Assembly (NCBI RefSeq): GCF_000346485.2
Contig: NZ_KQ976354.1
Coordinates: 9,269,916 to 9,306,655 of the forward strand
From: Scytonema hofmannii PCC 7110
GTDB taxonomy: Bacteria; Cyanobacteriota; Cyanobacteriia; Cyanobacteriales; Nostocaceae
Direction of reading: 5' to 3'
Length of the DNA: 36,740 nucleotides
Shown: positions 2 to 35,311 of the stretch, piece by piece
Layout of the letters: the number at the start of each line of letters is the position of its first letter
How positions within the stretch are numbered: the stretch's first letter is position 1
The notes under the pieces: generated by a model
The model's database searches: none
Told to the model about the DNA's origin: nothing
Seen by the model: the letters and a program-made list of their open reading frames with translations, nothing else
Position numbers and translations under genes: made by a program

Positions 2-427
2 AAAAAAGCCGCAGCCTTTGAAATTGAAACGACATCAGACCTAATTTATAAAACTACAGGTGTAAAAACAACTTTATTCAGACCACCAGGCGGAATGATG
101 CATAACGGCTTGGTAAATTATGCTAAAAATCAAAAACACACAGTAGTTATGTGGTCTGCTGACTCCATCGATTACAGCCGTCCTGCTGTACCCAGGCTGG
201 TTAGGAATGTGATGAGAGATTCCGAACCAGGTGGAATTGTGCTGATGCATGATGGTGGTGGAAATCGCACGAAAACCATCCAAGCATTACCGCAAATTAT
301 TAGTAATTTTCAAAAACAGGGCTATCGTTTTGTAACTGTTCCAGAACTTCTAGAAATGGAAGATAATGGCATTAAATTGGCAGCAGCTAAAAAGAATACC
401 TTGGCAGCAGTTAAAAAGAAACAGTGA
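2..427 (+). CDS. Polysaccharide deacetylase, C-terminal part (5' end outside window)
   Basis: The reading frame is open from base 2, so the gene begins upstream of the window. The visible 141 residues carry the later motifs of the NodB (carbohydrate esterase 4) fold: FRPPGG (R-x-P-x-G), then VMWSADSIDY, then IVLMHDGGGNR with the conserved Leu-x-His-Asp. The family removes N- or O-acetyl groups from chitooligosaccharides, peptidoglycan or exopolysaccharide using a metal site; the metal-binding Asp and His-His motifs would lie in the missing part. The final codons and the TGA stop lie at the first unit of a CAGTGAC heptamer tract, so the C-terminus may have been altered by repeat insertion. The downstream acyltransferase could also act on polysaccharide, but 240 bases of repeat-rich DNA separate the two. 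The family call is firm; the substrate is unknown. Confidence 0.88.
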   Translation, partial: KKAAAFEIETTSDLIYKTTGVKTTLFRPPGGMMHNGLVNYAKNQKHTVVMWSADSIDYSRPAVPRLVRNVMRDSEPGGIVLMHDGGGNRTKTIQALPQIISNFQKQGYRFVTVPELLEMEDNGIKLAAAKKNTLAAVKKKQ

Positions 428-450
428 CCAGTGACCAGTGACAAGTGACC
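422..450. repeat. Heptanucleotide tandem repeat CAGTGAC (about four units)
   Basis: About four near-perfect CAGTGAC units begin inside the last codons of the deacetylase gene; the first unit supplies its CAG TGA end. The same family recurs near 9872, 34246 and 35222. Confidence 0.85.
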
Positions 451-456
451 GAATCA

Positions 457-508
457 CCCTCGTTCCCAGGCTCAGCTTGGGAATACCTTTAGGAAGGCTC
501 CGCCTTCC
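457..508. repeat. Dispersed-type double hairpin
   Basis: Two inverted repeats follow each other: TTCCCAGGCT (463-472) against AGCTTGGGAA (474-483) with one mismatch, and a perfect 7-bp stem GGAAGGC/GCCTTCC (492-498/502-508) with loop TCC. The pattern resembles small palindromic elements scattered through cyanobacterial genomes. The rest of 509-670 shows no gene. A transcription-terminator role for the deacetylase gene is possible, but no T-run follows. Confidence 0.6.
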
Positions 509-670
509 ATAAGAGGATTTGAGGTAGTTTTGATGAGGAGTGGGTATATGCAGGAGTTTGGTTATGATTCCTGAAGGGAGGTTTAGGTTGTTCAACTCAT
601 GTGACTTTTACAGAATTTTAGGGAATTATATAGTCATCGCCCTAAAACTTCTGTTGAGACATAAAAATTT

Positions 671-1684
671 ATGAAAGTAGAAAGAAATAATAGTGTAGAC
701 ATATTAAAAGCATTAAGTATTATTTTTGTTTTGATATGGCATTTGCAACCTATTAAATTTATTATAGATAGCAAATCTCATACACTTTTAGTTGTTCTTG
801 CAAGAATTTTTATAGATTTACAATTACAATTATGTTTAATAGCAGTTCCTTTATTTTATATCATTTCTCTTTATCTGTTTTTTCAGAAACCAGAGTTGAA
901 ATATTTAAAAAAGAGACTTATTAGATTGATAAAAATATATTTAGCTTGGTCGATTTTCCAAAATATTTTTTATATTATAGCTACGAAAGAATTTCCTACT
1001 TGGTCTTGGGATATTATTACAGGTTTACAGCCAAGCTTACCATTAGTTGGGGATTCTGTTTTCTATTTCTTGTTTAATTTAATTATTTTGTCAATCCTGG
1101 CTTTTTTCTACCAAATACAATCAAAAAAATTAAAACAGATTGTATCGGTTATACTTGTAGGGTTTTCTTTATTTTATTTTGAAGCACTTTACTTCTTCAA
1201 TTCCAATCTTCCTTACCATTGGTTAATAAATTTCCTCATTTATATTCCTATTGCTTTTTCTTTAGTAAATAATCCCGAAAAATTTTTAAAGTTTAAAAGT
1301 TGCTATTTAATCGCATACGTACTGTTTTCTCTTCATGATATTTACTTGCGTATATATAACCACATTCCAAGTATTTATGGTAGAGTCTCTATTGTTTTTG
1401 GAGCTTTGACTATTTTTTGTTATGTTTATTCAACCCAAAACAATCAAAAAAGTTTGTTAGTAGAAAAATTAGCTAAGTACTCCCTTGGTCTATTTGCAAT
1501 ACACAAGTACTGGCAATACTTATTCGTGTTATTACTTCAAAAGTATAAGATAGCTATGACGATAGGTATCTTTGGAATACCTTTAAACATAATTTTCCTG
1601 GTAGAAAGTGTTTTTGTGGTATTCTTGACTTCCCTCTCAATTTATCTGTTAAAATCGACTTCTTTTAAGCAGTTTGTTACTTAG
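671..1684 (+). CDS. Acyltransferase 3 family membrane protein
   Basis: This is a 337-residue, very hydrophobic protein with about ten predicted membrane segments. Its N-terminus has the hallmark of the acyltransferase-3 (OafA/YrhL-like) family: Arg5, then SVDILKALSIIFVLIWH with Asp10 and His24. A basic loop (KKRLIRLIKIYLAW) follows the third membrane segment, and the late motif KYSLGLFAIHKYW also fits. Family members move acetyl or other acyl groups from the cytoplasm onto cell-surface sugars, lipids or peptidoglycan. The gene is much richer in A+T than its neighbours and rich in Phe, Leu, Ile, Lys and Tyr, which suggests horizontal acquisition. The ATG lies just after an AT-rich stretch without a clear Shine-Dalgarno. 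The real substrate cannot be told. A link with the upstream deacetylase (surface polysaccharide modification) is inference only. Confidence 0.82.
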   Translation: MKVERNNSVDILKALSIIFVLIWHLQPIKFIIDSKSHTLLVVLARIFIDLQLQLCLIAVPLFYIISLYLFFQKPELKYLKKRLIRLIKIYLAWSIFQNIFYIIATKEFPTWSWDIITGLQPSLPLVGDSVFYFLFNLIILSILAFFYQIQSKKLKQIVSVILVGFSLFYFEALYFFNSNLPYHWLINFLIYIPIAFSLVNNPEKFLKFKSCYLIAYVLFSLHDIYLRIYNHIPSIYGRVSIVFGALTIFCYVYSTQNNQKSLLVEKLAKYSLGLFAIHKYWQYLFVLLLQKYKIAMTIGIFGIPLNIIFLVESVFVVFLTSLSIYLLKSTSFKQFVT

Positions 1685-5200: not shown

Positions 5201-6985
5201 CATCAGTCTGCGGGCATATTCTGGCTTTGGATCTAATAAATTGCCCCGTTCTCCCAATTCTGCTTTCAGAGACATCACCAGACTTTCCCGTAGGGGATCG
5301 ATCGCTGGATTCGTCACCTGAGCAAAGCGCTGTTTGAAATAGTCATACAGCAAGTGGGGTTTTCCTGACAATATTGCCAGAGGAATATCATCCCCCATAC
5401 AGAAAGTTGCTTCCTTACCATCTATTGCCATTGGCTGAATCACCATGTCCACATCTTCTGTGGTGTAGCCAAAAGCTGTTTGTTGCTGGAGGAGAGTTTG
5501 TTTATCTGGGGGATTTTGGATTTTGGATTTTGGATTTTGGATTTTGGATTGGGAACTGGATGAAGCTCCATTCCCATTGCCCATTGCCCATTGCCCATTG
5601 CCCAATTTCTGACGATACTGGCGCAACCATTCCCCATAGGGATGCTGCTTGGCTATGCGCTGCTTAATTTCCCAGTTTTTCAGGACTTCGTGGCTTTCTA
5701 AATCTACAGCAATCATTTGCCCCGGTCCGAGTCTCCCTTTCTCAATAATGTCAGATTCGGCAAAGCTGACCACACCTGCTTCTGAAGCAACTACGATGTA
5801 GTCATCCTTGGTAATGCAGTAACGCGCTGGTCTTAAGCCATTGCGGTCAAGTGTTGCTCCAACTTTCCGCCCATCGCTAAACACCAACAGTGCGGGGCCG
5901 TCCCAAGCTTCTTGCAAGCCACTATAGTATTCGTAAAAGTCAACTATCTCAGGATAGGTTCCTAATTCTGGTTGATTTTGGTAAGCCTCTGGAACCATAA
6001 TCATGATGGCTTCTAAGGGGCTGCGTCCGGAATGCACTAGCAACTCAAACACGTTGTCTAAATTTGCTGAGTCACTGCTGTCAATATTGACGAATGGCTT
6101 TAGTTCATTAATCCGAACGCCCCAAACTGGGTGATTTAAGATTGCTTCTCTAGCCACCATCCAGTTAATATTCCCTAACAGAGTGTTGATTTCTCCATTG
6201 TGACCCAAAAGCCGCATGGGTTGAGCTAGGGGCCACTTGGGCATAGTATTGGTACTAAAGCGGCGGTGATAGACAACAAACGGGCTTGTGTATGATGGGT
6301 TTTTTAAATCTTGATAAAAAGCCCCCAACACTGCCGAACGTACCATACCCTTATAAATGATGGTTCGGCTAGAAAGCGAGCAGATGTAAAAGTCGTCTGA
6401 CCACGGGTTGTCATTTTGGCGAACGGCTTTATGAATTCGGCGACGTATGATGTAAAGCGATCGCTCTAATTCATCACCTCTTTTCTCTTCTGATGCTACA
6501 AAAAGTTGTTCGATCTGGGGTTGATTTTCTCTTGCTTGTATCCCCAATAATTCAGGTTGTACTGGAACCACTCGCCAGCCCAATACAATTAATTTCTCCT
6601 CAATCGCCACTTGCTCGACAAGCGCCCTAGCTTTTTGCGCTGTTTCCTCATCTTGAGGTAAAAATATCATTCCCACAGCCATATTACCTGTAGAAAAACC
6701 TTGTTTCCCCCATGCAGCTAGATCTTGTTGGAACAATTCCCAAGGCAGAGCGGTCAATATTCCTGCACCATCACCCGAATCTTGGTCTGCACTACAACCA
6801 CCCCTATGTTCCAAACAACTTAAAGCACCCAAAGCTTTTTCTACGACTTCATGGCTAGCTTGATTTTGGCGATGGGCAATAAAACCCACACCACAAGCAT
6901 CCCGCTCTTCCACTAACCATCTTTGACCTGGATAGGTGTACCCGTCGGTAATATCAGAATGTGTCATGTTTTGTTGTTGATTCAT
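2279..6985 (-). CDS. glsF: Ferredoxin-dependent glutamate synthase (Fd-GOGAT)
   Basis: The 1568-residue product transfers the amide nitrogen of glutamine to 2-oxoglutarate, the second half of the GS-GOGAT route of ammonium assimilation, using reduced ferredoxin. Order of parts: a 30-residue propeptide; the class II glutaminase domain with catalytic Cys31 (DACGVGF), exposed by processing; the central domain; the FMN-binding synthase domain; a 3Fe-4S motif at Cys1187, Cys1193 and Cys1198 ([12 protein letters not shown]); and the C-terminal GXGXG beta-helix domain. The size and the absence of an adjacent small (beta) subunit gene favour the ferredoxin type over NADPH-GOGAT. An unusual low-complexity insert at about residues 461-491 ([12 protein letters not shown], then [13 protein letters not shown]) lies at the junction of the glutaminase and central domains and is encoded by two in-frame heptamer repeats. 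I saw no GTAN8TAC NtcA box just upstream. Confidence 0.96.
5514..5549. repeat. TTTTGGA heptamer repeat inside the glutamate synthase gene
   Basis: About five tandem units of TTTTGGA lie in frame within the gene. On the coding (minus) strand they read as Ser-Lys-Ile-Gln-Asn-Pro-Lys cycles. The same family is found in the radical SAM gene (23709-23746) and in the tuf-rpsJ spacer. Confidence 0.92.
5573..5604. repeat. CCCATTG heptamer repeat inside the glutamate synthase gene
   Basis: Four full units and a partial one are present. On the coding strand they read Gln-Trp-Ala-Met-Gly-Asn-Gly. Only 23 bases separate them from the TTTTGGA tract, so two repeat families have landed in the same inter-domain linker. 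Confidence 0.92.
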
Positions 6986-7850: not shown

Positions 7851-9884
7851 ATGAGTAAATTACCGAAATATGTTTTCCTAAATACGTCAAAAGCCATGGT
7901 AATAATACTGAGTTATTTCCTAACACGAAATAGCCGTTTTGCAGTCAATAAAAGTAGTCATCGTTTTCTTAAGGTTGTCATACCGTCAGTACTTTCAACT
8001 CTACTTTGCCTGGTAAGTATATATAATAGTGCGAAAGCGCAACCTTCAACATCAAACGCACCAACTCCAAAACCTTTAGCTCCTGCATTACCGGGAGTGG
8101 TGTCCTATGGCGATCGAGTTGCTCTCAACGGTCGCATTTTACCTGGGGCTTGGTTGCAACAAAAGTCTCGAACTGGGAAAATTAACACTCATCTTAGTGA
8201 TGGGGCTATTGAGCAATTACTGGGAGTCGATTTATTAAATAATAACAACCCAACCAAACAACCGATACAGTGGTTTTCTTCATCCACAAACCCTGTCGTT
8301 TTAACCAGTTCGATCGCCACAGGATATCGGTATCTAGACATAACAAACTTTGCTCATACTACCGGATGGCAGATCCAAGCGAATGGTAACACTCTGGTAA
8401 TTTCTACGCCAAGTGCGAAAGTAGTTAATATTGGTCAGGGTAGGCAAACTAATGGTGGTACCATCATTATAAATTTAAATCGTCCAACTCCCTGGCAAAT
8501 TTCACAGGGATTACCCATACCAAAGTCTCCAATTTCACCACTTGACTCTGACGCTGCAACTCCCAAACCCGCATCACCACCAAACCGAGAATGGATCGTG
8601 ACTGTAGAAGGGATAGCCGATCCCAACCTATTGGGAGGAGTGAGAGAGGAAGAGAGTGAGAGAGGGAGGGAAGAAAGCACTTCGTTACCGACGCAAGTTC
8701 CAACACCCGACTCGTTAATTCAACAAGTAGAAGTTGCCAACAACCAAACGATAGTTAGACTCAGCGTTCCCTTTGGTTTTGCTCCTCGGGTAAATACTTT
8801 AGCCAACCCCAACCGCTTGAGCATAGAAATTCGACCCGATGCAATGCCAGAGCGTAATATTGTATGGGCGACAGGATTGAGATGGCGACAGCAGTACCTA
8901 AATTTAGGTCAAAATCGCTTTCCAGTCACATGGTTGGAAATTAACCCCCGTACAAGCGGGATAAAGTTGAAACCAATTTGGACAAATTCCGATACGATGG
9001 TTGGAACTGCGCCTCTGATTCAAACCGCACAACAGCAAACAGCAGTTGCAGCCATTAATGGTGGCTATTTTAACCGTAATAACCGATTGCCTTTAGGCGC
9101 ACTTCGCCGGGATAATTTATGGTTGTCAGGACCTATTCTCAATCGGGGCGCGATCGCTTGGAATGATTCCGGACAGTTTTACATCGATCACCTCACTTTA
9201 CAAGAAACCATAATTGCACCAAACAAGGTACAGTTACCAATTCTTTATCTAAATAGTGGCTACGTTCAGAGTGGCATTGCTCGTTACACCCCTGCATGGG
9301 GAGCAACTTACACCCCTCTCACCGATAATGAAATCATCTTGGTCGTACAACAAAATAAAATTCTCAATCAATTGACACTAAGTAAAGCAGGTGAAACAGC
9401 TGTTCCCATTCCCCAAGATGGTTACCTGCTGACTTTTCGTGGGTTAGCCACGGCCAACGCCTTACGATTACCCGTGAATTCCACAATCAAGATTAATAGT
9501 TCTACCACTACTACTGAGTTTAACCGTTATCCCCACATAGTAGGGGCAGGTCCTTTGCTGTTGCGGAACCGCCAGATTGTGCTTGATGCCAAGGGAGAAA
9601 AATTTAGTGATGCTTTCATCGCGGAAAAAGCCGTTCGCAGTGGGATTTGTACAACAGCAACAGGAAATTTAGCGATCGCAGCAGTACACAATCGTGCAGG
9701 TGGTAGTGGACCGACCTTAGCAGAACACGCGCAGTTAATGCAGCTTTTGGGGTGTGTTAATGCTCTCAATTTAGACGGGGGTAGTTCTACCAGTCTTTAC
9801 CTGGGGGGTCAACTCCTGGATCGTTCTCCCAATACCGCAGCTCGCGTTCATAACGGAATTGGGGTGTTTAACAGTGACCAGTGA
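7851..9884 (+). CDS. Secreted phosphodiester glycosidase (NAGPA-domain) protein
   Basis: From the ATG at 7851 the product has 677 residues; a second ATG at 7896 also gives a plausible signal peptide. The frame extends upstream to a TTG at 7647, but that part looks non-coding. A hydrophobic segment (VVIPSVLSTLLCLVSIYNSAKA) ends in AKA before residue 64, a typical Sec cleavage site. The middle is a Pro/Thr/Ser-rich, AMIN/beta-rich region. The last ~270 residues form the phosphodiester glycosidase domain: VAAINGGYFNRNNRLPLGAL, then LNLDGGSSTSLYLGG and ARVHNGIGVF. The family includes the mammalian uncovering enzyme; bacterial members are thought to act on envelope or exopolysaccharide phosphodiesters. 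A Glu/Arg-rich low-complexity stretch (GVREEESERGREES, DNA about 8634-8678) looks like another repeat insertion. The last residues (NSDQ) and the stop come from a CAGTGAC repeat. Confidence 0.85.
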   Translation: MSKLPKYVFLNTSKAMVIILSYFLTRNSRFAVNKSSHRFLKVVIPSVLSTLLCLVSIYNSAKAQPSTSNAPTPKPLAPALPGVVSYGDRVALNGRILPGAWLQQKSRTGKINTHLSDGAIEQLLGVDLLNNNNPTKQPIQWFSSSTNPVVLTSSIATGYRYLDITNFAHTTGWQIQANGNTLVISTPSAKVVNIGQGRQTNGGTIIINLNRPTPWQISQGLPIPKSPISPLDSDAATPKPASPPNREWIVTVEGIADPNLLGGVREEESERGREESTSLPTQVPTPDSLIQQVEVANNQTIVRLSVPFGFAPRVNTLANPNRLSIEIRPDAMPERNIVWATGLRWRQQYLNLGQNRFPVTWLEINPRTSGIKLKPIWTNSDTMVGTAPLIQTAQQQTAVAAINGGYFNRNNRLPLGALRRDNLWLSGPILNRGAIAWNDSGQFYIDHLTLQETIIAPNKVQLPILYLNSGYVQSGIARYTPAWGATYTPLTDNEIILVVQQNKILNQLTLSKAGETAVPIPQDGYLLTFRGLATANALRLPVNSTIKINSSTTTTEFNRYPHIVGAGPLLLRNRQIVLDAKGEKFSDAFIAEKAVRSGICTTATGNLAIAAVHNRAGGSGPTLAEHAQLMQLLGCVNALNLDGGSSTSLYLGGQLLDRSPNTAARVHNGIGVFNSDQ

Positions 9885-9941
9885 CCAGTGACCAGTGACC
9901 AGTGACCAGTGATCAGTGACCAGTGACCAGTGACCAGTGAC
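9872..9941. repeat. CAGTGAC heptamer tract (ten units)
   Basis: Ten units (one with GAT for GAC) start inside the glycosidase gene: its stop codon is the TGA of the second unit, at 9882-9884. The remaining 56 bases form the start of the spacer before the cupin gene. Confidence 0.93.
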
Positions 9942-11198: not shown

Positions 11199-11225
11199 GG
11201 CTTGTAATTTAGAGTCCCAGTTAAA

Positions 11226-11300
11226 CAAAACTTGTCATTTGTCTTTTGTCCTTTGCCTCAATCAATGGCAAATGACAAAACACGAATGACAAATGACAAA
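11226..11300. repeat. Inverted pair of TTTGTCA/TGACAAA heptamer tracts upstream of rpsL
   Basis: A tract of TTTGTC-type units (TGTCATTTGTCTTTTGTCC) is followed after a short loop by GGCAAATGACAAAACACGAA and further TGACAAA units. The strands can fold into an imperfect cruciform or hairpin with the core pair TTTGCC/GGCAAA. It ends just before the rpsL promoter. Confidence 0.7.
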
Positions 11301-11305
11301 AAAAC

Positions 11306-11336
11306 TTGACACAAAACCCGAAAGAAAAGCTATAAT
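11306..11336 (+). promoter_or_regulatory. Promoter of the str operon (rpsL)
   Basis: A perfect -35 hexamer TTGACA (11306-11311) and a perfect -10 hexamer TATAAT (11331-11336) are separated by 19 bases. The expected start of transcription near 11343 would give a leader of about 40 bases before the rpsL ATG. The strength of both boxes suits a ribosomal operon. The spacer is longer than the 17-base optimum. Confidence 0.75.
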
Positions 11337-11385
11337 CAGGATTTGTTGTTACTTAGAATAAAAGCAGCTTTTCGCGCTGTAACTC

Positions 11386-11763: not shown

Positions 11764-11766
11764 AGC

Positions 11767-11924
11767 AGTGCTGAGTATTGAGTGCTGAGCAACACAGGGT
11801 TTCCTCGGCACTTGGCACTAGAGTATTGAAGGGAGTAGGGAGTAGGGAGTAGGGAATAGGAATGAAGCGATTTTTAACCCCTACCTCCTACCCCCTACTC
11901 TCCACTTCCCACTCCCTACTCCCT
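11767..11924. repeat. Inverted heptamer arrays in the rpsL-rpsG spacer
   Basis: GGGAGTA units (11831-11855) face CTACTCC-type units (11878-11924), able to form a long imperfect hairpin. Just upstream, an AGTGCTGAGTATTGAGTGCTGAG-like tract (11767-11789) faces CTCGGCACTTGGCACT (11804-11819). The 192-base spacer inside this operon is almost entirely repeat. Confidence 0.85.
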
Positions 11925-11955
11925 AGTGAAAGAACGAAACTAAAGGTTACTAAGT

Positions 11956-12426: not shown

Positions 12427-12427
12427 A

Positions 12428-12510
12428 GAAGGATGAAGGATAAAGGATGAAGGATAAAAACAATGAATTAAGTTATTACTTTATCCTTGATACTTTATAC
12501 TTTATCCTTC
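12428..12510. repeat. Inverted AAGGATA/TATCCTT arrays in the rpsG-fusA spacer
   Basis: GAAGGATGAAGGATAAAGG-type units (12428-12458) face TTTATCCTTGATACTTTATA-type units (12480-12510). The two arms are nearly perfectly complementary over about 30 bases with a 21-base AT-rich loop, so the transcript can form a long hairpin inside the operon. Confidence 0.88.
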
Positions 12511-14674: not shown

Positions 14675-14823
14675 CGGTCATTAGTCATTAGTCATTGGTC
14701 ATTGGTCATTGGTCATTGGTCATTCGTAAAAGACAAAGGACAAAGGGCAATTGACAAAGGACAAAAGACAATTGACAAAGGACAAAAGACAATTGACAAA
14801 GGACAATTGACAAAGGACAAAAC
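14675..14823. repeat. Two heptamer families in the fusA-tuf spacer
   Basis: About seven units of GTCATTA/GTCATTG (about 14678-14727) are followed by about twelve units mixing GACAAAG and GACAATT (about 14730-14823). The spacer is almost pure repeat. The last units carry AAAGGA about nine to ten bases before the tuf ATG, so the repeat may itself provide the weak ribosome-binding site. Confidence 0.9.
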
Positions 14824-16132: not shown

Positions 16133-16204
16133 ATTTTAGATTTTAGATTTTGGACTTTGGATTGAGTCTAAAATCCAAAATCCAAAATCTAAAATCCAAA
16201 ATCT
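16133..16204. repeat. Inverted TTTTAGA/TTTTGGA and TCCAAAA/TCTAAAA arrays in the tuf-rpsJ spacer
   Basis: TTTTAGATTTTAGATTTTGG-type units (16134-16173) face CTAAAATCCAAAATCC-type units (16178-16204). The arms can pair into a long, weak A/T hairpin directly ahead of rpsJ. Confidence 0.88.
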
Positions 16205-16226: not shown

Positions 16227-16544
16227 ATGGCAACACTACAGCAGCAAAAGATTAGAATTCGTTTACAAGCTTTTGACCGTCGCTTGCTGGACACATCTTG
16301 CGAGAAGATTGTAGACACAGCTAACCGCACCAATGCGACAGCTATAGGACCGATTCCTCTCCCAACAAAACGCCGCATCTACTGTGTGTTGCGTTCTCCA
16401 CACGTAGATAAAGATTCACGGGAACATTTTGAAACCCGCACTCATCGCCGAATTATTGACATTTATCAGCCTTCTTCTAAGACTATCGATGCTTTGATGA
16501 AACTGGATCTTCCTTCTGGTGTAGATATTGAAGTGAAATTATAG
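16227..16544 (+). CDS. rpsJ: 30S ribosomal protein uS10
   Basis: The 105-residue product is S10, a small-subunit head protein that in many bacteria also works as NusE in antitermination. Typical segments: [40 protein letters not shown] and a C-terminal [12 protein letters not shown]. The length is normal. In cyanobacteria S10 commonly sits after tuf at the end of the str cluster rather than at the head of the S10 operon, and that arrangement is seen here. A terminator and a repeat block separate it from tuf; another terminator follows at 16684. Confidence 0.98.
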
Positions 16545-16545
16545 T

Positions 16546-16667
16546 TATTTGTTATTTGTTAGTTGTTAGTTGTTAGTAGGGGCGCAAGGCCGCCGCGCCC
16601 GTACAAAGTCAGTAAGTCTGGTGGAAAACCACCAACCACCAACCACTAACCACTAACTACTAACAAT
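16546..16667. repeat. Inverted GTTAGTT/AACTAAC arrays with GC-rich hairpin after rpsJ
   Basis: TTATTTG and TTAGTTG units (16546-16577) face ACCAACC and ACTAACC units (16628-16665). Between them is a GC-rich hairpin (GGGCGC...GCGCCC near 16579-16600) of a type often dispersed in cyanobacterial spacers. Confidence 0.8.
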
Positions 16668-16810: not shown

Positions 16811-17452
16811 ATGACATCAACTTCTAGAATTGCTGTTTGCGAACTACCTCTGTTCCCGTTGCCGGAAGTAGTTTTGTTCCCTACTAGACCATTGCCCCTG
16901 CATATCTTTGAATTTCGCTACCGAATTATGATGAACACGATTTTGGAAAGCGATCGCAGGTTCGGTGTTTTGATGGTCGATCCGGTAAGAGGTACGATCG
17001 CTAATGTTGGTTGCTGCGCGGAAATCATCCACTATCAGCGTATGCCTGATGACCGAATGAAGATGTTGAGTCTAGGGCAACAGAGGTTTCGTCTTCTCAA
17101 ATATATTCGAGAAAAGCCATACCGGGTAGGTTTGGTAGAGTGGATTGAAGACAAACCCCCCGTAAAAGACTTAAGACCTTTAGCCACTGATGTAGAACAT
17201 CTGCTGCGAGATGTGGTTAGGCTTTCAGCTAAACTGACAGACCAAAACATTGAATTGCCTGAAGATTTGCCAGATTTACCGATAGAGCTGTCTTACTGGA
17301 TTGCAAGCAACCTTTATGGTGTTGCAGCAGAGCAGCAAGCATTGTTAGAGCTTCAAGATACAGCAGAGCGCTTGGAAAGAGAATCGGAGATTTTAACTTC
17401 CACGCGCAATCATTTAGCAGCTCGTACTGTTCTCAAAGATACTTTTAATTAA
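16811..17452 (+). CDS. Lon substrate-binding (N-terminal) domain protein
   Basis: The 213-residue product consists of the N-terminal, substrate-recognition domain of Lon protease only: LPLFPLPEVVLFPTRPLPLH near residues 13-32, then FEFRYRIMMNTILESDRRFG and a helical C-terminal half. The AAA+ ATPase and Ser-Lys protease parts are absent, so it cannot degrade proteins alone. Such stand-alone domains are widespread in cyanobacteria; their role (adaptor, chaperone-like binding) is not established. It follows rpsJ after a terminator, in the same direction, and may use its own promoter in the AT-rich stretch 16730-16800. It converges with pheA across an inverted repeat. Confidence 0.9.
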   Translation: MTSTSRIAVCELPLFPLPEVVLFPTRPLPLHIFEFRYRIMMNTILESDRRFGVLMVDPVRGTIANVGCCAEIIHYQRMPDDRMKMLSLGQQRFRLLKYIREKPYRVGLVEWIEDKPPVKDLRPLATDVEHLLRDVVRLSAKLTDQNIELPEDLPDLPIELSYWIASNLYGVAAEQQALLELQDTAERLERESEILTSTRNHLAARTVLKDTFN

Positions 17453-17527
17453 TGGTTAGTGGTTAGTGGTTAGTGGTTAGGGTGATAATAAACAACCAAC
17501 AACTAACAACTAACAACCAACAACTAA
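17453..17527. repeat. Inverted GGTTAGT / AACTAAC arrays between convergent genes
   Basis: Four GGTTAGT units (17453-17479) face several AACAACTAACAACC units (17490-17527). The right array overlaps the last codons of pheA. The arms can form a hairpin and may stop transcription from both sides. Confidence 0.88.
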
Positions 17528-18394
17528 CTCTTGAATTGGCAAAACATTGTAGCTGCCAAAACTTTTTAAAACCTCTGTATACGTTGTTATCTCTGCCAAA
17601 GCAGACTCTACTTGAGCTTCCGATGAATCTGCTTCTAAGTCGATAAAAAATAAATATTCTCCTAAAGATCGCTTTGTAGGGCGAGATTCAATTTTGCTTA
17701 AGTTGATTCCTATACTGGCAAATACTTGTAGGGGTTTTGCTAGTGCGCCTGGTACATTTGCAGGAGTGCTAAAAGCAAGTGAGGTGTGAGTGCGTCGTTC
17801 TAAATGAGAGGGGCGAGCTAATGGGATGTAATTTTTGCTCATAACCCAGAATCGAGTATAGTTTTCGGGGTAGTCGTTAATCCCAGTTGCTAAGACAGGC
17901 AAATTATATAGTTGTGCCGCACGTTCAGAAGAAATAGCTGCTGCTGTTGGGTCTTGCTCGAGTTGCAGTAATGCTTCTGTTGTAGAATTTTTGGGAATGA
18001 GTTGTACTTTAGGTATAACTCTATCTAACCATCCTTGACACTGTGCTAGGGCTTGTGGATGAGAATAAACGGTTTTGATATCTTCTATACTTTGAGCACA
18101 AGAAATTAATGTGTGGACTATTGGCATGACTATAGCTAACTGAACTTGCAAGCCATCTAGTTGCCATAGTGCATCTAACGTCATAGTCACACTACCTTCA
18201 ATAGAATTTTCCACTGGGACTACAGCCAGTTTTGCCTGTCCTTGTGCAACCGCTCGTAATGTTTGGGCGATGCTGGGATACGGACATAAGATGGCTCTCT
18301 GATCTCTTGTTTTAGTCAGCCAGTTGAAATAAAGAAGTGCCGCTTGTTCTGCATAAGTGCCTGGAGGTCCTAAATGTGCGATCGATAAGGTCAT
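17510..18394 (-). CDS. pheA: Prephenate dehydratase
   Basis: The 294-residue product converts prephenate to phenylpyruvate in phenylalanine synthesis. The catalytic domain shows LGPPGTYAEQAAL, VPVENSIEGSVTMTLD and NYTRFWVMS (the TRF motif). The C-terminal ACT domain, which binds phenylalanine for feedback control, has GALAKPLQVFASIGINLSKI followed by ESRP. There is no chorismate mutase domain, so it is monofunctional as in other cyanobacteria. ATG 18394 (MTLSIAHLGPPG) was chosen because the longer frame relies on a TTG at 18412. The last five residues (LVVGC) and the TAG stop are encoded by the GTTAGTT repeat array, so the native C-terminus was probably changed by the repeat. Confidence 0.95.
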   Translation of the reverse strand: MTLSIAHLGPPGTYAEQAALLYFNWLTKTRDQRAILCPYPSIAQTLRAVAQGQAKLAVVPVENSIEGSVTMTLDALWQLDGLQVQLAIVMPIVHTLISCAQSIEDIKTVYSHPQALAQCQGWLDRVIPKVQLIPKNSTTEALLQLEQDPTAAAISSERAAQLYNLPVLATGINDYPENYTRFWVMSKNYIPLARPSHLERRTHTSLAFSTPANVPGALAKPLQVFASIGINLSKIESRPTKRSLGEYLFFIDLEADSSEAQVESALAEITTYTEVLKSFGSYNVLPIQELVVGC

Positions 18395-18651: not shown

Positions 18652-19236
18652 ATGCCTACTCGGTTTACTGCATCTCAATTGGTTGCGATCGCAATTCCGG
18701 AGCAGCCTACTCCGATTCAGCACTATTTGCGACAGCCCCAACGTTTAGTCAGGGCGTTGTTTGACCCCAACCGCATTCAGCAGCTGTCTGAGGAAGTGTT
18801 TCGTCTGAAATTGCGTCCTCTGAGTTTTATGTCATTAAGTATTCAGCCCTCTGTAGACCTAAAAGTCACGGCGGAATCAAATGGAACCATTCGCGTGCGA
18901 TCGGTAGGTTGTGAAATTCTAGGTATTGAATATATCAACCAACGTTTTTCTTTAAATTTAGAAGGGTATTTATCCCCAGAACAGCTAAGTACTGGTACTC
19001 ACCTCAAGGGAAGAGCAGATTTAGAAGTCCAAGTGGATTTACCACCCCCATTTTCCTTTACACCTAGAGCTATTCTAGAAGCGACAGGCAATGGATTGCT
19101 TAAGAGTGTTTTGCTAACAATCAAGCAAAGATTGCAATATCAGCTCCTAGCCGATTATCGCCAATGGGCTTTATCACAAAAACGGCAAACACTGTTGACA
19201 ACCGAAAGCACAGATTTACCAATGGTGACAGAATAA
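18652..19236 (+). CDS. DUF1997 family protein
   Basis: The 194-residue product belongs to the DUF1997 family of cyanobacteria and plants. Recognisable segments are LRQPQRLVRALFDPNRIQQL, VFRLKLRPLSFMSLSIQP and the helical end LLKSVLLTIKQRLQYQLLAD. It has no signal peptide or membrane segment, so it is probably cytosolic or peripheral. The fold prediction for such proteins is a lipid- or ligand-binding beta-rich domain, but no function is established. It is divergent from pheA and convergent with rnhB. There is no visible Shine-Dalgarno; an inverted repeat takes its place. Confidence 0.82.
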   Translation: MPTRFTASQLVAIAIPEQPTPIQHYLRQPQRLVRALFDPNRIQQLSEEVFRLKLRPLSFMSLSIQPSVDLKVTAESNGTIRVRSVGCEILGIEYINQRFSLNLEGYLSPEQLSTGTHLKGRADLEVQVDLPPPFSFTPRAILEATGNGLLKSVLLTIKQRLQYQLLADYRQWALSQKRQTLLTTESTDLPMVTE

Positions 19237-19260
19237 TTCATAATTTATAATTCATAATTT

Positions 19261-22761: not shown

Positions 22762-25554
22762 TTATACCGCTAAAACCAGCCGATTGCGGTGAACGTGAAG
22801 CAGATGAAATTCTGCACCTGCTACTTGTTCTAGGATAGACAGAATTTGCTCCGGACGCAACACTGTTCCATCTTGGCGACAACTGCCTACATAACGTAGA
22901 ACGACTGCGTTGGCTTCTTGGTGTTTAAAACATCCCTGGAAATTGGTTGCGCTCAAACTTGATGGCTCTACCATTTCTAACTCGAACAAGCGATCGCGCA
23001 GATTTACTAACTGTGTCTTACCAGACTTCGTCGTGTGTTTCCACAAAATCTCATCTTTCGCTTTTATTGTATCAATCCAACTTTGCCATTGTACAGGAGC
23101 TACTTCTCCATTCGAACAAGCTACGGTCATCAAATACTCTGCCGTTTCCAACCCTTGGCTTGCTGCTGGTGTTTTTAAATCCAGCTGTTCCACCTTATAT
23201 AAAGGAGTATCTGATGGCAGGGCTGCAGCTAGTTTTTGCCGGAAATCCTCCATCTCAACTGGTTCTGTTAGATCGAAATCCACAATTTCACCACTGCTAG
23301 TTGCTCCTAAAGATAAAGCACTGGCAATAGCGATGCGAGGATGTGGGTGGAATCCACCTGTGAAAGAAATTGGTAATCCCGCTCGTCGCAAAGCGCGATC
23401 GAATAAGCGCAATAAATCCAAATGGCTGACTAAAGCCATGTTACCCAGTTTACCAAACCAAACGCGCAATCTTTGCGCTTTTGTTGTGTTGGGTACAAAC
23501 TCACCAGCAAATTTGGGAATATCTGGTGGTGGAATCACCACATTATGACCGAAGTCAGTACTGCAAACCCCACAGTGAGAACAGCCGTCAAAAGAGCAAT
23601 CCGGTACTGTAGCTGCTTGTAGCGCACGTTGCAGATCTTCTTTGAGCCATTTTTTATCGATACCTGTATCGAGATGGTCCCAGGGCAGGGGTTTGTCTAG
23701 GGAAGGAGATTTTGGATTTTGGATTTTGGATTTTGGATTTTGGATTGAGCATTGGATAGATAAGGAAGATCTTTCTTCTACCTTGTCTCCCTCGTCCTCC
23801 TTGTCCCTTTCTTTCCCTATCCCCTGTTCCCTATCCCCTACCCCCTCCTCTGGGGCAAACAAATTCCATTCGCCGTTTTCAACTTGACGGTATTTCCAGT
23901 CCAAACCCGCTTCCGCGATCGCAGTTCCCCACGCGCTGTATGCTTTTTCTACGCTCTCGTACCAAGAGTCCATCCCAGCACCTAGTTCCCAGGCACGACG
24001 TACTACTGGGGCAAGGGTGCGATCGCCTCTTCCTACGAAATCTTCCATTGCTGAAATGCGAACATCGGTGAAATTCACCTTCACTCCTTTCATCCGGCGA
24101 AATGCTTGCCGTAATAAGTCTTGCTTGCGTTTAAATTCTGCTGTAGAAACTGAGTGCCACTGAAAAGGAGTATGGGGCTTAGGCGTAAAGTTAGAAATTG
24201 TTAAGTTAAATGACAGAGGTCTTCTCCGATTTGCGCGGCATTCTCGTTGCAACCAGCTGACTGTTTCCGCAATCCCCAAAACATCAGTATCGGTTTCTCC
24301 GGGTAAGCCAATCATAAAGTACAGCTTAATTTTGTCCCAACCTTGTTCCCAACCTGTTTTTACACCTCGCAACAGTTCTTCATTTGTCAATCCTTTATTG
24401 ACAATATCGCGCATCCGTTGTGTACCAGCTTCCGGTGCAAAAGTCAATCCACCTTGTCTTGTACCACCCAAGATATTAGCAATATTTTCATCAAATCTGT
24501 CTACTCGTTGGCTTGGTAAAGAAAGAGTTATATTCTCATTTTTCAGACGGTTCTTTATTTCCATCCCTACTGCTGGGAGAGACAGATAATCAGAACAACT
24601 TAGAGATAGCAGAGAAAATTCATTATAACCTGTTTGCCGCATTCCTTGCTCAATTGCTGCAACCACACGCTCCGGTTCTACATCTCGCGCCGGCCTGGTA
24701 AGCATTCCCGGTTGGCAGAAGCGACAGCCACGAGTACAACCACGACGGATTTCAATTGTCAGGCGATCGTGGACTGGTTGTATATAGGGAACCAACCCAA
24801 TGGAGTAGGCTGGCATGGGAGTTGCGACTCGGCGCAAAATTCTTTTGGGAACATCCGGACGGTTGGGACGAACTGAACCATCCGGAGCCATGTCGTAGAA
24901 CTGAGGAACGTATACGCCTGGTATTTGTGCTAACTCCAGCAACAATTCTTTACGATTGAGTCCTGCCTTTTTACCTTCTTCCAAAATCAAACCAATTTCT
25001 GGCAGAAGTTCTTCGCCATCCCCTAACGCAACAAAATCAAAGAAATCAGCGTAGGGTTCGGGATTGGACGTCGCCGTTTGTCCACCCGCGAAGATGAGGG
25101 GGTAGGGGGTAGAATTCTCCCCATCTCCCCATCTCCCTATCCCCTCGATACGTTCCCGCCAGGTTAAGGGAATACCAGCTAAGTCCAACATCTCCAAAAT
25201 GTTGGTTACCCCTAACTCATAACTGAGGCTAAATCCTAGAATGTCAAACTCGGTCAATGCTCGCTTGGATTCCACCGCAAACAACGGGGTATTTGTTGCC
25301 CGTAACTTTGCCGCTAAGTCCGCTCCTGGTAGATACGAGCGGTCGCATAACTGGCGCGGCTGGGTATTTAGAATGTTATAGAGGATAACATGCCCTAGAT
25401 TTGCTGCACCAACTTCATAGACCTCTGGGTAGGTGAGTACCCAGCGTACTACTGCGGATTCCCAAGGCTTATGAACGGCTTCGAGCTCGTTACCTAGGTA
25501 ACGAGCTGGCTTTAATATATCCGGTGAGATTAACTTTTCAAATGCAACAGCCAC
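22762..25554 (-). CDS. B12-binding-like radical SAM protein fused to DUF2344 domain
   Basis: The 930-residue protein joins two families that are separate genes in many bacteria. The N-terminal part has a B12-binding-like region and a radical SAM core with the cluster motif Cys273-x3-Cys277-x2-Cys280 (RRGCTRGCRFC). A second Cys cluster follows (Cys653, 658, 661, 664; GCSHCGVC). The C-terminal DUF2344 region begins around residue 690 (LGNMALVSHLDLLRLFDRAL, SFTGGFHPHPRIAIASAL). Related genes lie next to rng/rne in many genomes, as here, which suggests a role in RNA or ribosome modification, though no reaction is established. Two low-complexity inserts are repeat-encoded and in frame: about residues 136-152 (GIGRWGDGENST) and about 567-616 (including [12 protein letters not shown]). 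Neither touches a cluster motif. Confidence 0.92.
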   Translation of the reverse strand: MAVAFEKLISPDILKPARYLGNELEAVHKPWESAVVRWVLTYPEVYEVGAANLGHVILYNILNTQPRQLCDRSYLPGADLAAKLRATNTPLFAVESKRALTEFDILGFSLSYELGVTNILEMLDLAGIPLTWRERIEGIGRWGDGENSTPYPLIFAGGQTATSNPEPYADFFDFVALGDGEELLPEIGLILEEGKKAGLNRKELLLELAQIPGVYVPQFYDMAPDGSVRPNRPDVPKRILRRVATPMPAYSIGLVPYIQPVHDRLTIEIRRGCTRGCRFCQPGMLTRPARDVEPERVVAAIEQGMRQTGYNEFSLLSLSCSDYLSLPAVGMEIKNRLKNENITLSLPSQRVDRFDENIANILGGTRQGGLTFAPEAGTQRMRDIVNKGLTNEELLRGVKTGWEQGWDKIKLYFMIGLPGETDTDVLGIAETVSWLQRECRANRRRPLSFNLTISNFTPKPHTPFQWHSVSTAEFKRKQDLLRQAFRRMKGVKVNFTDVRISAMEDFVGRGDRTLAPVVRRAWELGAGMDSWYESVEKAYSAWGTAIAEAGLDWKYRQVENGEWNLFAPEEGVGDREQGIGKERDKEDEGDKVEERSSLSIQCSIQNPKSKIQNPKSPSLDKPLPWDHLDTGIDKKWLKEDLQRALQAATVPDCSFDGCSHCGVCSTDFGHNVVIPPPDIPKFAGEFVPNTTKAQRLRVWFGKLGNMALVSHLDLLRLFDRALRRAGLPISFTGGFHPHPRIAIASALSLGATSSGEIVDFDLTEPVEMEDFRQKLAAALPSDTPLYKVEQLDLKTPAASQGLETAEYLMTVACSNGEVAPVQWQSWIDTIKAKDEILWKHTTKSGKTQLVNLRDRLFELEMVEPSSLSATNFQGCFKHQEANAVVLRYVGSCRQDGTVLRPEQILSILEQVAGAEFHLLHVHRNRLVLAV
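23709..23746. repeat. TTTTGGA heptamer repeat inside the radical SAM gene
   Basis: About five units are in frame and read as SKIQNPK cycles on the coding strand. They are joined to an irregular CT-rich low-complexity stretch (about 23760-23855, with CCCTATCCCCT-type units), making a compound insert between the radical SAM core and the second Cys cluster. Confidence 0.9.
25097..25144. repeat. CCCCATCT repeat inside the radical SAM gene
   Basis: Two CCCCATCT octamers plus CCCTATCCCC and GGGGGTAG units make an in-frame insert of about 16 codons within the B12-binding-like region, between WRERIEG and YPLIFAGGQTA. Confidence 0.75.
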
Positions 25555-28091: not shown

Positions 28092-28132
28092 GGAGGGGAG
28101 TAGGGAGTAGGGAGTAGGGAGTAGGGAGTAGG
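28086..28132. repeat. GGGAGTA heptamer tract after the aminotransferase gene
   Basis: About five units directly follow the stop codon, before an AATAATTATT palindrome; it lies between convergent genes. Confidence 0.9.
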
Positions 28133-30070: not shown

Positions 30071-30111
30071 TTAGCTCAGCGTCAAAGCTCTCAGTCAGCA
30101 GTCTTAAGCGA

Positions 30112-30131
30112 CCCCTAACCCCTAACCCCTA
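30112..30131. repeat. CCCCTAA heptamer tract (three units)
   Basis: Just under three units overlap the end of the histidine kinase gene. They provide its last residues (GVRG) and stop codon. Confidence 0.8.
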
Positions 30132-32124: not shown

Positions 32125-32760
32125 TCAGGCATCAACTGTCACTGTACCTGCCAGACATGCCCTGTCCAAATTAATACCCCTCAAATTAGCACCATCTAAT
32201 TCAGCACAGAGTAAATTTGCTCCTGTAAGATTTGCTCCTGCAAGATTTGCCCCTCGCAGATCGGCTTCTTCTAAATTTGCCTCACTCAACAAAGCCCCTT
32301 GCAAATCTGCACGACTTAAATCTGCACCTTTAAGATTTGCTCCAGTTAAATTCGCACCACGCAAATCAGCACCTCGAAAGTCAACACCCTGTAAGTTAAC
32401 ATTCATTAAATTAGCGCCACTTAAAAAAGCACCAGCACAAGACACCTCACTCAATCTCGCACCCATTAAGTTCGCGCCTCGGAAGTTACCACCTCGCAAG
32501 TCAGCTTCTGTTAAATCTGCTTGCATTAAATTTGCTCCCATTAGGTTTGCTCGCAAGTCAGCTTGTACAAGGATTGCTCCCATTAAATTAGCCCCATTCA
32601 AATGCCCGCCCTCAAGTTTAGAACCTGTGAAATTTACGCCAACAAGGTTTGCACCAGAGAGATTAATGCGCTTTAAATCGAGATTTGATAAATCTTCGTC
32701 TTCTAAAGAAGCACCAGGCAGGTGTTTGAGTTGCCCTAAGCGAATTTCTTCTATGTTCAT
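32125..32760 (-). CDS. Pentapeptide-repeat protein
   Basis: The 211-residue product consists almost wholly of tandem A(N/D)LxG/A pentapeptides from about residue 18 to 205 (for example GANLMGANLMQADLTEADLR). Such proteins form a right-handed four-sided beta helix. There is no membrane segment or catalytic domain; functions of cyanobacterial family members are mostly unknown, though some bind partner proteins. A single four-residue break (RANLM after QADL) interrupts the pattern. It is followed by the DUF2330 gene upstream on the same strand with 50 bases between them; co-transcription is possible. Confidence 0.92.
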   Translation of the reverse strand: MNIEEIRLGQLKHLPGASLEDEDLSNLDLKRINLSGANLVGVNFTGSKLEGGHLNGANLMGAILVQADLRANLMGANLMQADLTEADLRGGNFRGANLMGARLSEVSCAGAFLSGANLMNVNLQGVDFRGADLRGANLTGANLKGADLSRADLQGALLSEANLEEADLRGANLAGANLTGANLLCAELDGANLRGINLDRACLAGTVTVDA

Positions 32761-34181: not shown

Positions 34182-34189
34182 TTAATTGG

Positions 34190-34272
34190 TTAGTTGTTAG
34201 TTGTTAGTTGTTAGTTGTTAGTTGTTAGTTGTTAGTTGTTAGTTGCCACTGGTCACTGCTCACTGGTCACTG
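34190..34272. repeat. TTAGTTG (eight units) joined to CACTGGT repeats
   Basis: Eight perfect TTAGTTG units (34190-34245) fill the spacer, followed by CACTGGT/CACTGCT units that include the final codons and stop of the RnfD-like gene (on its strand the CAGTGAC family). Confidence 0.95.
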
Positions 34273-35125
34273 TTAATTGGTTTGACCAAGAAAAACGTGG
34301 TGCTGACCAAAAGATATCTGTTAAAATTGTCAATGGAGCAATTGCAAATAATGCCCAAAAAACTGCTGTGGAAACGTAGAAATAATTCCGTAGAATAAAA
34401 GTCAGTATTGCAATGCACGCCGCCCAAACTATGCGTCCAATTTTTGCGTTGGGAATTGAGCGAGGGTCTGTTATCATAAACAGGGCAAACAGTAGCAATG
34501 ACCCGCTCATGAGTCGATGCAAAAAAACATCCCAAGTCCAGCCCAACCAAATATTGCGAATCGCTTCTAAACCAGCGTAAGCACCTAAAAAAGCTGCTGT
34601 GGTGTCCCAACGACCAACTCGCTTGAGAATCATGCCTCCAGTTCCAGCAAATAGCAGCCCATACCACCAGTCCTCACCCCACTGTCCGGGAGAAACCCAA
34701 GCATCAGGAGTCAGTGCTAAGGCAGAAATGATACCAAAGTTGGCAGGGTTAAAGAAATGTTTGTCGTCAACTTTAAAGACAAATTTGCTAGCAATGGCGC
34801 TTGCTGCAGCTAAAGCCATTGTTGTCCAGTGGTCAGCCCTTAGCAATAGGCTGAGTCCGAGGGAGGTAATGACGGCACTGCGGAGATTTATTTTTTGTTC
34901 TTTGTCTGTAACAAATGACCAATGACAAATGACCAGTGACCAATGACAAATGACCAATGACAAATGACCAATGACAAATGACAAAAGCCATTGTGTTGAT
35001 ATACAAGTAACAATTGCTACTACAATTAATTGAGGTCGCAACGTCCAGTCCCTTGCTCCAATTCCTAGAATTAAGAACAAGGTCAGAAAAAGAATTTGAT
35101 AATCGCGTATATCTTTAAACAGCAT
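34253..35125 (-). CDS. RnfD/NqrB-like membrane protein with repeat-encoded insert
   Basis: The 290-residue protein has about eight to nine predicted membrane segments and resembles the NQR2/RnfD/RnfE family: FNPANFGIISALALTPDAWVSPG (the region where RnfD/NqrB attach FMN in true members), then the hydrophobic segments GSLLLFALFMITDPRSIPN. No other rnf or nqr genes are adjacent, so it is probably a stand-alone homologue with unknown electron or substrate partner. Residues about 48-72 (LSFVIGHLSLVICHWS, LVICHWSFV) are encoded by a TCATTTG/TCATTGG heptamer repeat between the second membrane segment and NLRSAVITSLGLSLL. The insert is itself hydrophobic and may add or lengthen a membrane helix. The last residues (TVTSEQ) and the stop come from a CAGTGAC-type repeat. 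Confidence 0.8.
   Translation of the reverse strand: MLFKDIRDYQILFLTLFLILGIGARDWTLRPQLIVVAIVTCISTQWLLSFVIGHLSLVICHWSLVICHWSFVTDKEQKINLRSAVITSLGLSLLLRADHWTTMALAAASAIASKFVFKVDDKHFFNPANFGIISALALTPDAWVSPGQWGEDWWYGLLFAGTGGMILKRVGRWDTTAAFLGAYAGLEAIRNIWLGWTWDVFLHRLMSGSLLLFALFMITDPRSIPNAKIGRIVWAACIAILTFILRNYFYVSTAVFWALFAIAPLTILTDIFWSAPRFSWSNQLTVTSEQ
34911..34985. repeat. CAAATGA/CCAATGA heptamer repeat inside the RnfD-like gene
   Basis: About ten units lie in frame. The coding (minus) strand reads SFVIGHL/SLVICHW cycles with no stop, while the plus strand has a TGA in every frame. Confidence 0.93.
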
Positions 35126-35221
35126 TACCCGCTATGACCGGGATTTCTCGTAGATGGTTGTTCTAGATATAGACTGAAATAAGCTAAAATGGTGCCATTG
35201 TTACAAAATTTGTTACAGAAT

Positions 35222-35311
35222 AGTGACCAGGGTTACTGGTCACTGGTCACTGGTCACTGCTTACTGCTTACTGGTCACTGCTTACTGCTTACTGGTCACT
35301 GCTTACTGTTT
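35222..35311. repeat. CTGGTCA/CTGCTTA heptamer tract
   Basis: About eleven units of CTGGTCA and CTGCTTA fill the spacer upstream of the RnfD-like gene and overlap the last codons of the DICT gene. At its left end GTGACCAG (35222-35229) faces CTGGTCAC (35235-35242) as a perfect 8-bp hairpin. Confidence 0.9.

Follow-up and report, generated by a model that had tools for sequence, protein, structure and literature searches.

Tandem arrays of seven-base units occur in and between the genes of a 36,740-nucleotide stretch of Scytonema hofmannii PCC 7110 (contig NZ_KQ976354.1, positions 9,269,916 to 9,306,655; the window, meaning this whole stretch), and raise the question of what decides which strand of an array is turned outwards from a gene. 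Cyanobacteria were found to carry heptamer arrays decades ago, and the short tandemly repeated repetitive (STRR) heptamers of Nostocales are 7-nt tandem units of many families, mostly intergenic and also present inside ribonuclease P RNA; to our knowledge, there is no accepted account of the origin of such arrays. The common factor in their orientation is base composition: beside a gene, whether at its 5' or its 3' end, an array nearly always has its G/T-rich strand leading away from that gene.

Genome sampling and array detection

The genome (12.29 Mb in 39 contigs) was analysed as five stretches of 400 kb (A, B, C, D and F; 2.0 Mb, about one sixth of the whole), the window lying within D. 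Komarekiella, Hassallia and Dolichospermum are among the closest named matches of its fusA (86-89% identity), in keeping with a Nostocales cyanobacterium. Stretches A to D (1.6 Mb) formed the discovery set, and F was held out, with predictions fixed before its inspection. Comparison DNA consisted of stretch E, 400 kb of a genome of the same genus (G001) that is syntenic with D and was examined alongside A to D as a second species rather than as a blind test; 100 kb of G005, from another genus; and a set of relatives comprising 109 loci (37 families) after removal of 11 of 120 loci that came from the S. hofmannii genome, G001 or G005.

An array counted as strict if it was an exact lag-7 run no shorter than 21 nt, and as soft if it scored at least 13 with +1 for a lag-7 match and -2 for a mismatch. 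The strand on which at least four of the seven bases are G or T is called keto, and its A/C-rich counterpart amino. Genes were called with a home-made coding model with arrays masked, and spacers shorter than 30 nt were left out before counting. Arrays with exactly the unit ACCAGTG make up 106 of 440; this family, together with units at most one mismatch away, was set apart from the outward counts.

Period 7 dominates: strict lag-7 runs numbered 62, 71, 29 and 88 in stretches A, B, C and D, lags 4 to 6 and 8 to 13 gave 0 to 3 runs each, lag 14 (a multiple of 7) gave 2 to 20 and lag 15 gave 0 to 11, and a first-order Markov resample of stretch A contained no lag-7 run. The 2.0 Mb of S. hofmannii DNA contain 440 soft arrays of 59 families, and the 21-mer of CAGTGAC has 835 and 701 overlapping matches genome-wide. 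With their 7-nt tandem units, many families of dispersed copies and mostly intergenic positions, these arrays resemble the STRR heptamers.

Orientation of arrays beside genes

Among arrays less than 25 nt from a gene in stretches A to D, the keto strand was the outgoing strand in 132 of 142 (p = 3e-28), and 43 of 48 such arrays were keto-outward in stretch E. When F was added and only non-overlapping arrays at 0 to 24 nt from genes with unextended starts were counted, 98 of 105 were keto-outward (p = 1e-21), both at 3' ends (54/59) and at 5' ends (44/46), and in convergent (21/21), divergent (9/10) and tandem (68/74) spacers alike. The polarity did not depend on stop codons, being found for units open on no strand, one strand or both strands (14/17, 18/19 and 22/23, respectively, at 3' ends; 16/18, 11/11 and 17/17 at 5' ends). 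Of the seven exceptions, four occupy the whole of a short spacer and lie almost as near to the other gene. Single arrays were also keto-outward (82/92), and when families of S. hofmannii, G001 and G005 were considered, 37 had a keto-outward majority and seven, ACCAGTG among them, did not (p = 5e-6).

Units without any GG also obey: the AACAACT family (8/9 at 0 to 24 nt; 23/26 with overlaps), AATTATG (5/5) and GCTAATT (5/5). Orientation flips with distance from gene ends, even for units closed on both strands, and single arrays more than 100 nt from genes in A to D, of families other than ACCAGTG, had no outward preference (13/33). The outward strand of array-free spacer DNA is 0.49-0.53 G/T, and general strand composition of spacers is therefore rejected as the cause of the polarity.

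The held-out stretch behaved in the same way, with 19 of 21 arrays keto-outward (5/5, 9/10 and 5/6 for units open on no, one and both strands) and distant singles at 3/5. As predicted, five arms named in advance were in sense in 15 of 16 cases at 0 to 24 nt downstream of a stop but in none of the 11 cases at 25 to 99 nt. Among the 109 loci of relatives, skewed units less than 25 nt from a gene were outward in 12 of 13. Downstream of the rpsJ stop, an array lies within about 30 nt in 11 of 30 loci (S. hofmannii and G001 included), and in all 11 the keto strand is in sense, with several different units (inspected by eye).

Paired arms and hairpins

Neighbouring arrays have a polarity of their own. 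Those less than 30 nt apart in A to D, with ACCAGTG pairs set apart, comprised 34 keto-amino pairs, six keto-keto pairs and no amino-keto pair. Nineteen of the 34 keto-amino pairs are reverse complements with at most one mismatch, ten are so within two mismatches and five are unrelated; random partners were inverted in about 10% of cases, and the arms are thus related too often for two independent end additions to be their sole origin. In stretch F the pairs less than 30 nt apart were 8:0 keto-first with two of the same class, and 8 of 10 neighbours at most 100 nt apart were inverted and keto-first, exactly the predicted threshold. The relatives had seven keto-amino pairs, three of the same class and none reversed.

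Over all sets, pairs of skewed units less than 60 nt apart were keto-first by 5:0 inside genes (two of the same class) and by 3:0 far from genes (one of the same class). Although these numbers are small, they indicate that no function in untranslated regions is required for pair polarity. The 45 inverted keto-to-amino pairs have a median loop of 11 nt (range 0 to 97) and median arms of 35 and 38 nt, and their loops have nothing in common by eye.

Strongly skewed hairpins that overlap arrays were keto-first by 16:1 in S. hofmannii and 6:0 in G001, whereas array-free hairpins in the same spacers were keto-first to amino-first by 63:73 and 18:9, respectively, and hairpins of 69 non-cyanobacterial loci lean the opposite way (27:61). 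A general handedness of hairpins is rejected on these counts.

Arrays of the window

The arrays of the window are listed below. The genes that contain arrays are gltS (2279-6985, - strand), a radical S-adenosylmethionine (SAM) gene (22762-25554, - strand) and an RnfD-like gene (34253-35125, - strand); the genes of the str operon are presumably those named, the names having been assigned by recognition of their translations.

422..449, + strand: CAGTGAC array, overlapping the end of open reading frame (ORF) 95-427 and supplying its stop
5511..5550, - strand: array in gltS; sense TCCAAAA, A/C-rich, reads SKIQNPK
5573..5604, - strand: array in gltS; sense CAATGGG reads GNGQWAM
9872..9941, + strand: CAGTGAC array, within which ORF 7647-9884 terminates as ...SDQ*
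11232..11300, + strand: TTGTCAT / AATGACA inverted heptamer hairpin in the spacer before rpsL, from Tandem Repeats Finder and folding; below the soft-array threshold
11830..11925, + strand: AGGGAGT / CCTACTC inverted hairpin in the rpsL-rpsG spacer
12428..12509, + strand: GAAGGAT / TACTTTA inverted hairpin in the rpsG-fusA spacer; G001 has a hairpin at this site too, both arms of which are made of another unit
14677..14821, + strand: GTCATTG / AAAGGAC arrays in the fusA-tufA spacer, the first open in sense despite its gene-end position
16133..16203, + strand: ATTTTAG / AAAATCC hairpin in the tufA-rpsJ spacer; TAGTTGT / CTAACCA at the same place in G001
16544..16664, + strand: GTTAGTT / AACCACT arms after the rpsJ stop
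17449..17528, + strand: TTAGTGG / AACAACT hairpin that overlaps the 3' ends of the two convergent genes on either side of it
19233..19259, + strand: ATAATTC array over the stop of ORF 18652-19236
23708..23746, - strand: array in the radical SAM gene; sense reads SKIQNPK
23813..23846, - strand: degenerate CCCTATC array in the radical SAM gene; sense GVGDREQGIG, in the same linker as the array at 23708..23746
28096..28132, + strand: GGGAGTA array just past the stop of ORF 26919-28091; single, G/T-rich outward
30111..30131, - strand: array with sense TAGGGGT over the stop of ORF 30115-31800; G/T-rich outward
34189..34245, + strand: GTTAGTT array with neither strand open, which takes up the spacer between 34181 and 34253
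34911..34985, - strand: imperfect array in the RnfD-like gene; sense TCATTTG/GGTCATT, hydrophobic SFVICHL-type peptide
35231..35315, - strand: array over the stop of ORF 35289-36689, which ends ...SDQ*

The spacers of the str operon (rpsL, rpsG, fusA, tufA and rpsJ; 11199-17509) contain hairpins or paired arrays of heptamers, the unit differing from one spacer to the next. On the + strand, the pairs 5511/5573, 11830/11880, 14677/14728, 16133/16170, 16544/16627 and 17449/17491 run from keto to amino; the first of these, in gltS, is an intragenic pair with G/T first and A/C second, made of unrelated units.

Stop codons and arrays inside genes

The first-pass annotation of the window had explained orientation by a stop-codon rule, according to which a heptamer strand is either open or closed in all three frames, arrays inside genes have an open strand in sense, and arrays at gene ends have a stop in sense. 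The arrays lie where it placed them and its frame arithmetic is correct: neither TTTTGGA nor CCCATTG is closed on either strand, TCATTTG has one open strand, and the sense strand is open in all of the arrays in gltS, the radical SAM gene and the RnfD-like gene. The rule is nevertheless a necessity of the reading frame, in genes and across their ends, and is largely true but carries little information. Because a period of 7 is prime to 3, at least three units with a stop close all three frames, so that an open sense strand inside a gene is nearly unavoidable. Chance is therefore the wrong yardstick for the in-gene half of the rule, and the refutation that had been proposed for it, stop-containing strands in intact genes, is hardly observable. 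In the 2.0 Mb of S. hofmannii DNA, 48 arrays lay 60 nt or more from the ends of the called genes that contain them (those nearer to gene ends being left out), and 45 of these were indeed open in sense; the other three were imperfect arrays, scored by their consensus unit.

At gene ends the rule applied unevenly. A stop in sense was found for CAGTGAC (422 and 9872), GGGGTTA (30111) and CAGTAAG (35231), but GTTAGTT at 16544 touches only the last base of the rpsJ stop, and as a general rule the claim fails at (GTCATTG)n, which starts at 14677 beyond the fusA stop ending at 14674 and is open in sense. Balanced (4:3) units that are open on one strand had the closed strand in sense in 38 of 42 arrays overlapping 3' ends and in 11 of 18 at 0 to 24 nt beyond the end.

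The annotation had also suggested that permissive families can become protein sequence, which is supported, mostly for one of the two strands. Units open on both strands account for 35 of the 48 in-gene arrays, and the more hydrophilic of the two peptides is in sense in 33 of these 35 (p = 4e-8), by a measure picked after F had been seen and in arrays several of which share a gene, so that not all are independent. The TTTTGGA family is read as SKIQNPK 17 times inside genes and from its FWILDFG side once. The hydrophobic case of the window is the RnfD-like gene, in which the sense strand of the imperfect array reads SFVIGHLSLVICHWS and the product is membrane-protein-like by eye. Arrays open on both strands have a ratio of 0.56 in genes relative to spacers, and half of this ratio predicts 31.9 singly open arrays in genes; only 10 were found open in sense, about threefold fewer (p = 0.004). 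Even the doubly open arrays are sixfold thinner in genes (0.023/kb) than in spacers (0.138/kb).

The arrays of gltS and of the radical SAM gene fall in a linker that is poorly conserved and varies in both length and sequence (29 relatives aligned per gene). The SKIQNPK repeat of gltS is absent from the other 29 relatives aligned, same-genus G001 among them, and the radical SAM linker of some relatives has other heptamer-like inserts, such as TPHSPLP and LLTPNSPLP. In many relatives the gltS linker, which carries the arrays at 5511-5604 here, is filled with NG dipeptide repeats. Arrays of the SKIQNPK and REWGIGNG types are numerous inside some exceptionally long ORFs of stretch F, which reach 22 kb and probably encode multi-domain synthetases.

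Protein ends

The stop codon lies wholly within an array in 95 of 1289 called genes (stretches A to D and F). The C-terminus SDQ, the product of CAGTGAC, occurs in 27 of 1287 S. hofmannii proteins and is by far the commonest terminal tripeptide (the next occurs six times); it was found in none of the 295 proteins of the G001 stretch. Where an array covers the stop in at least one member of an orthologue pair (28 pairs), divergence of the C-termini is mostly confined to a few final residues, which suggests that arrays mostly grow at an existing gene end; the exceptions are three array-bearing proteins that are seven residues longer, seven shorter and 12 shorter, respectively. Arrays thus shape proteins in two ways, as mostly hydrophilic inserts and as stop codons supplied at gene ends.

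Turnover between species

Of 64 syntenic spacers of D and E, 11 have arrays in both species, 19 in D only, four in E only and 30 in neither (odds ratio 4.3, p = 0.04). About half of 14 D-only spacers inspected by eye hold a decayed hairpin or array in E. At six aligned shared sites, the flanks are largely conserved and the position of the array is about the same, and the unit is different, in both arms where there are two. Such a change of both arms at a conserved site was seen by alignment with G001 in the rpsG-fusA and tufA-rpsJ spacers, where two complementary heptamer arms have changed their unit together. For arrays at orthologous sites, detected at a lower threshold, the keto or amino class was kept in 22 of 29 cases, compared to 14.1 after shuffling (p = 0.004), and the units of these 22 were 1.77 mismatches apart, compared to 2.53 (p = 0.007). 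Orthologous units thus lie closer together than after shuffling, a sign that some common ancestry persists and that the units have apparently drifted and were not drawn anew at random.

The fusA-tufA spacer (14675-14828) is 154 nt long here and 22 nt in G001, where no array was detected; recent gain here or loss in G001 is the likely explanation. The dominant heptamers differ within the genus, being AATGGCT and AATTATG in G001 and ACCAGTG, ACTCCCT and AAAATCC in S. hofmannii. In syntenic spacers 164, 221 and 270 of stretch D, arrays of ACCAGTG seem, by eye, to overgrow one arm of older hairpins, the counterparts of which persist in G001.

Origin of the polarity

The G/T-then-A/C pairs, which read in that order on either strand, are mostly imperfect hairpins, and the probable reading of the counts as a whole is one of hairpins of fixed handedness whose units drift while their place and polarity persist. 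Single arrays at gene ends would then be arms, or remnants of arms, of such hairpins. Units may turn over through slippage within an arm and copying between arms, by hairpin template switching or ectopic conversion, and place and polarity would thus persist as the unit drifts in both arms. For the polarity itself, a cause in DNA repair is put forward tentatively. Hairpin nucleases may cleave such elements. Breaks or hairpin cleavage at the centre of an element would leave G/T-rich 3' tails on both sides, and if RecA-type pairing favoured these tails, elements of that polarity would be repaired, copied ectopically and kept, and those of opposite polarity would be lost. A preference of RecA for TGG repeats is reported in PMC3763553. 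It is possible, though doubtful as yet, that a DNA-level process in heptamer-rich bacteria builds and maintains repeats of fixed polarity with G/T-rich 3' ends directed away from genes, as in telomeres, and rewrites both arms of hundreds of hairpins without altering their site or polarity; if so, each species would have its own 'dialect' of units at shared sites, with some C-termini (SDQ*) changing along.

Several observations weigh against the handed hairpins and their proposed cause. ACCAGTG, the commonest unit and nearly balanced at 4:3, breaks the outward rule at 0 to 24 nt outside genes (8/21); balance alone does not account for this exception, because other 4:3 units obey (AATGGCT, 7/7; AATTATG, 5/5), and in ACCAGTG the stop rule acts as far as logic demands and little further. 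Taken alone, G005 is weak, with 8 of 10 skewed units outward at 0 to 24 nt. When all families were included, 3 of 65 neighbours at most 100 nt apart in A to D were amino-keto, compared to 47 keto-amino, and further reversed pairs occur at gaps of 100 to 300 nt. In the window, the pair 12428/12477 is G/T-rich by 4:3 in both arms and so is not a G/T-then-A/C pair. Most gene-adjacent arrays are single, and a clear decayed partner was found for only 20% of 51 singles, compared to 6% for direct matches, so that the polarity of singles is not fully explained by paired arms. The prediction for F that at least 80% of doubly open in-gene arrays would have their amino strand in sense was not borne out (11/16); hydrophilicity, a measure chosen afterwards, fits in-gene strand choice better. 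The gene calls are those of the home-made coding model alone, and the case for DNA repair draws partly on general background.

Selection at the RNA level is a rather unlikely alternative, according to which an A/C-rich leader stays unstructured and offers no spurious start or Shine-Dalgarno-like site, and past the stop a stretch rich in G and U, or a hairpin, aids 3' end formation or mRNA stability. It would suit the distribution of arrays, which lie less than 25 nt from 16.3% of 3' ends (175/1075), 7.2% of 5' ends in tandem spacers and 3.8% of 5' ends in divergent spacers (17/448), and a translational role of TAACTGA upstream of starts is argued in PMC4679880. However, pairs are not enriched in convergent spacers (5.1%, compared to 3.1-5.4% in other types, counting array positions only), and a cause at the DNA level is favoured because the small number of pairs within genes and at a distance from genes have the same polarity, which ordinary, array-free hairpins of the same spacers lack.

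Birth by snap-back, in which the 3' end of a nascent strand rich in G and T pairs with itself through G.T wobbles and primes its own complement as an A/C-rich end cannot, would yield G/T-first hairpins at the DNA level in and out of genes. It is improbable: folding of single-stranded DNA gave about 0 kcal/mol on both strands for most of 22 families, and the G/T-rich strand was not consistently better. A stop-codon filter alone, that is, random insertion in both orientations followed by selective removal of stops from genes, was thought sufficient in the first-pass annotation and would account for the open sense strands inside genes (45/48) and the closed ones across 3' ends (38/42), but it is slightly less credible still, and is rejected as the whole explanation by the choice of the more hydrophilic strand (33/35), the shortage of singly open arrays (10, compared to 31.9 expected) and an outside-gene polarity that is equally strong for units closed or open on both strands. 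Very improbable is a mobile palindrome like those of repetitive extragenic palindromic (REP) elements and their hairpin-forming doublets (REPINs), moving as a single cassette: the arrays are palindromic, dispersed and at gene ends, and one spacer is 154 nt long here and 22 nt in G001, but the 45 loops are unrelated by eye, neighbouring sites of one operon carry different units, and about half of the seemingly empty G001 sites hold a decayed hairpin or array by eye. Scarcely credible is the placing and orienting of G-rich heptamers by the G-quadruplexes (G4) that they form, for although a G4 study (PMC4692102) describes the same polarity for GGGNATC-type repeats of two Xanthomonas genomes and Nostoc sp. 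PCC 7120, G4 formation is refuted as a general cause by obeying families that have no G-run (AACAACT, on its other strand AGTTGTT; AATTATG; GCTAATT).

Relation to known repeats

What appears to be new here is a polarity common to most families, to both gene ends and to hairpin arms, cases of single families being already in print. In titles and the beginnings of abstracts, with subscription papers mostly outside the coverage and priority therefore uncertain, neither a shared G/T-outward polarity nor paired handed arms were found for heptamers in general. The rule gives any proposed mechanism something precise to explain, and unites two published single-family observations that were framed differently, as G4 formation and as translational control.

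Rickettsial palindromic elements, which are inserted in frame in genes as a defined element of fixed sequence, are like these arrays in that repeat DNA is tolerated in coding genes; unlike them, the arrays are made of many heptamers. The conserved palindrome with a shared core that marks REP elements and REPINs was not found here, loops and arms of the 45 pairs differing between loci by eye. Intrinsic terminators have a G+C-rich stem followed by a T run and are enriched after genes and in convergent spacers; the arrays favour 3' ends, and their pairs show no enrichment in convergent spacers.

Closer likenesses are described in three papers. The GGGNATC-type heptamers of the G4 study (PMC4692102) share the polarity, which here extends to 37 of 44 families, includes units without G-runs and is linked to paired arms. 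The TAACTGA repeats of marine Beggiatoaceae, found also in Cyanobacteria (PMC4679880), have stops in all three frames in the forward orientation, in which they lie at ORF ends, are open in reverse and then lie inside ORFs, and are mostly forward just upstream of starts; thus the in-gene rule of stops and orientation was already in print for one heptamer. Unlike the arrays described here, they comprise one unit, are interpreted as translational regulation and include a single indirect repeat in the main genome. The P6b hairpin of the Nostoc tRNA-Leu(UAA) intron (PMC4476775), with TDNGATT or NNTGAGT units, is a heptamer stem for which repeated shifts of unit class at one site were inferred, like the joint change of arms in the rpsG-fusA and tufA-rpsJ spacers; whereas P6b is confined to one intron, the arrays described here occupy many gene ends genome-wide, and homology to the intron is not claimed.

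At 32211-32552 the window also has repeats of 15 bases, which are not heptamer arrays but coding sequence for a pentapeptide-repeat protein (ORF 32125-32760). Plasmids searched with the SKIQNPK repeat gave 27 records, none of them from Nostoc, and a pentapeptide query returned Nostoc plasmids among its matches.

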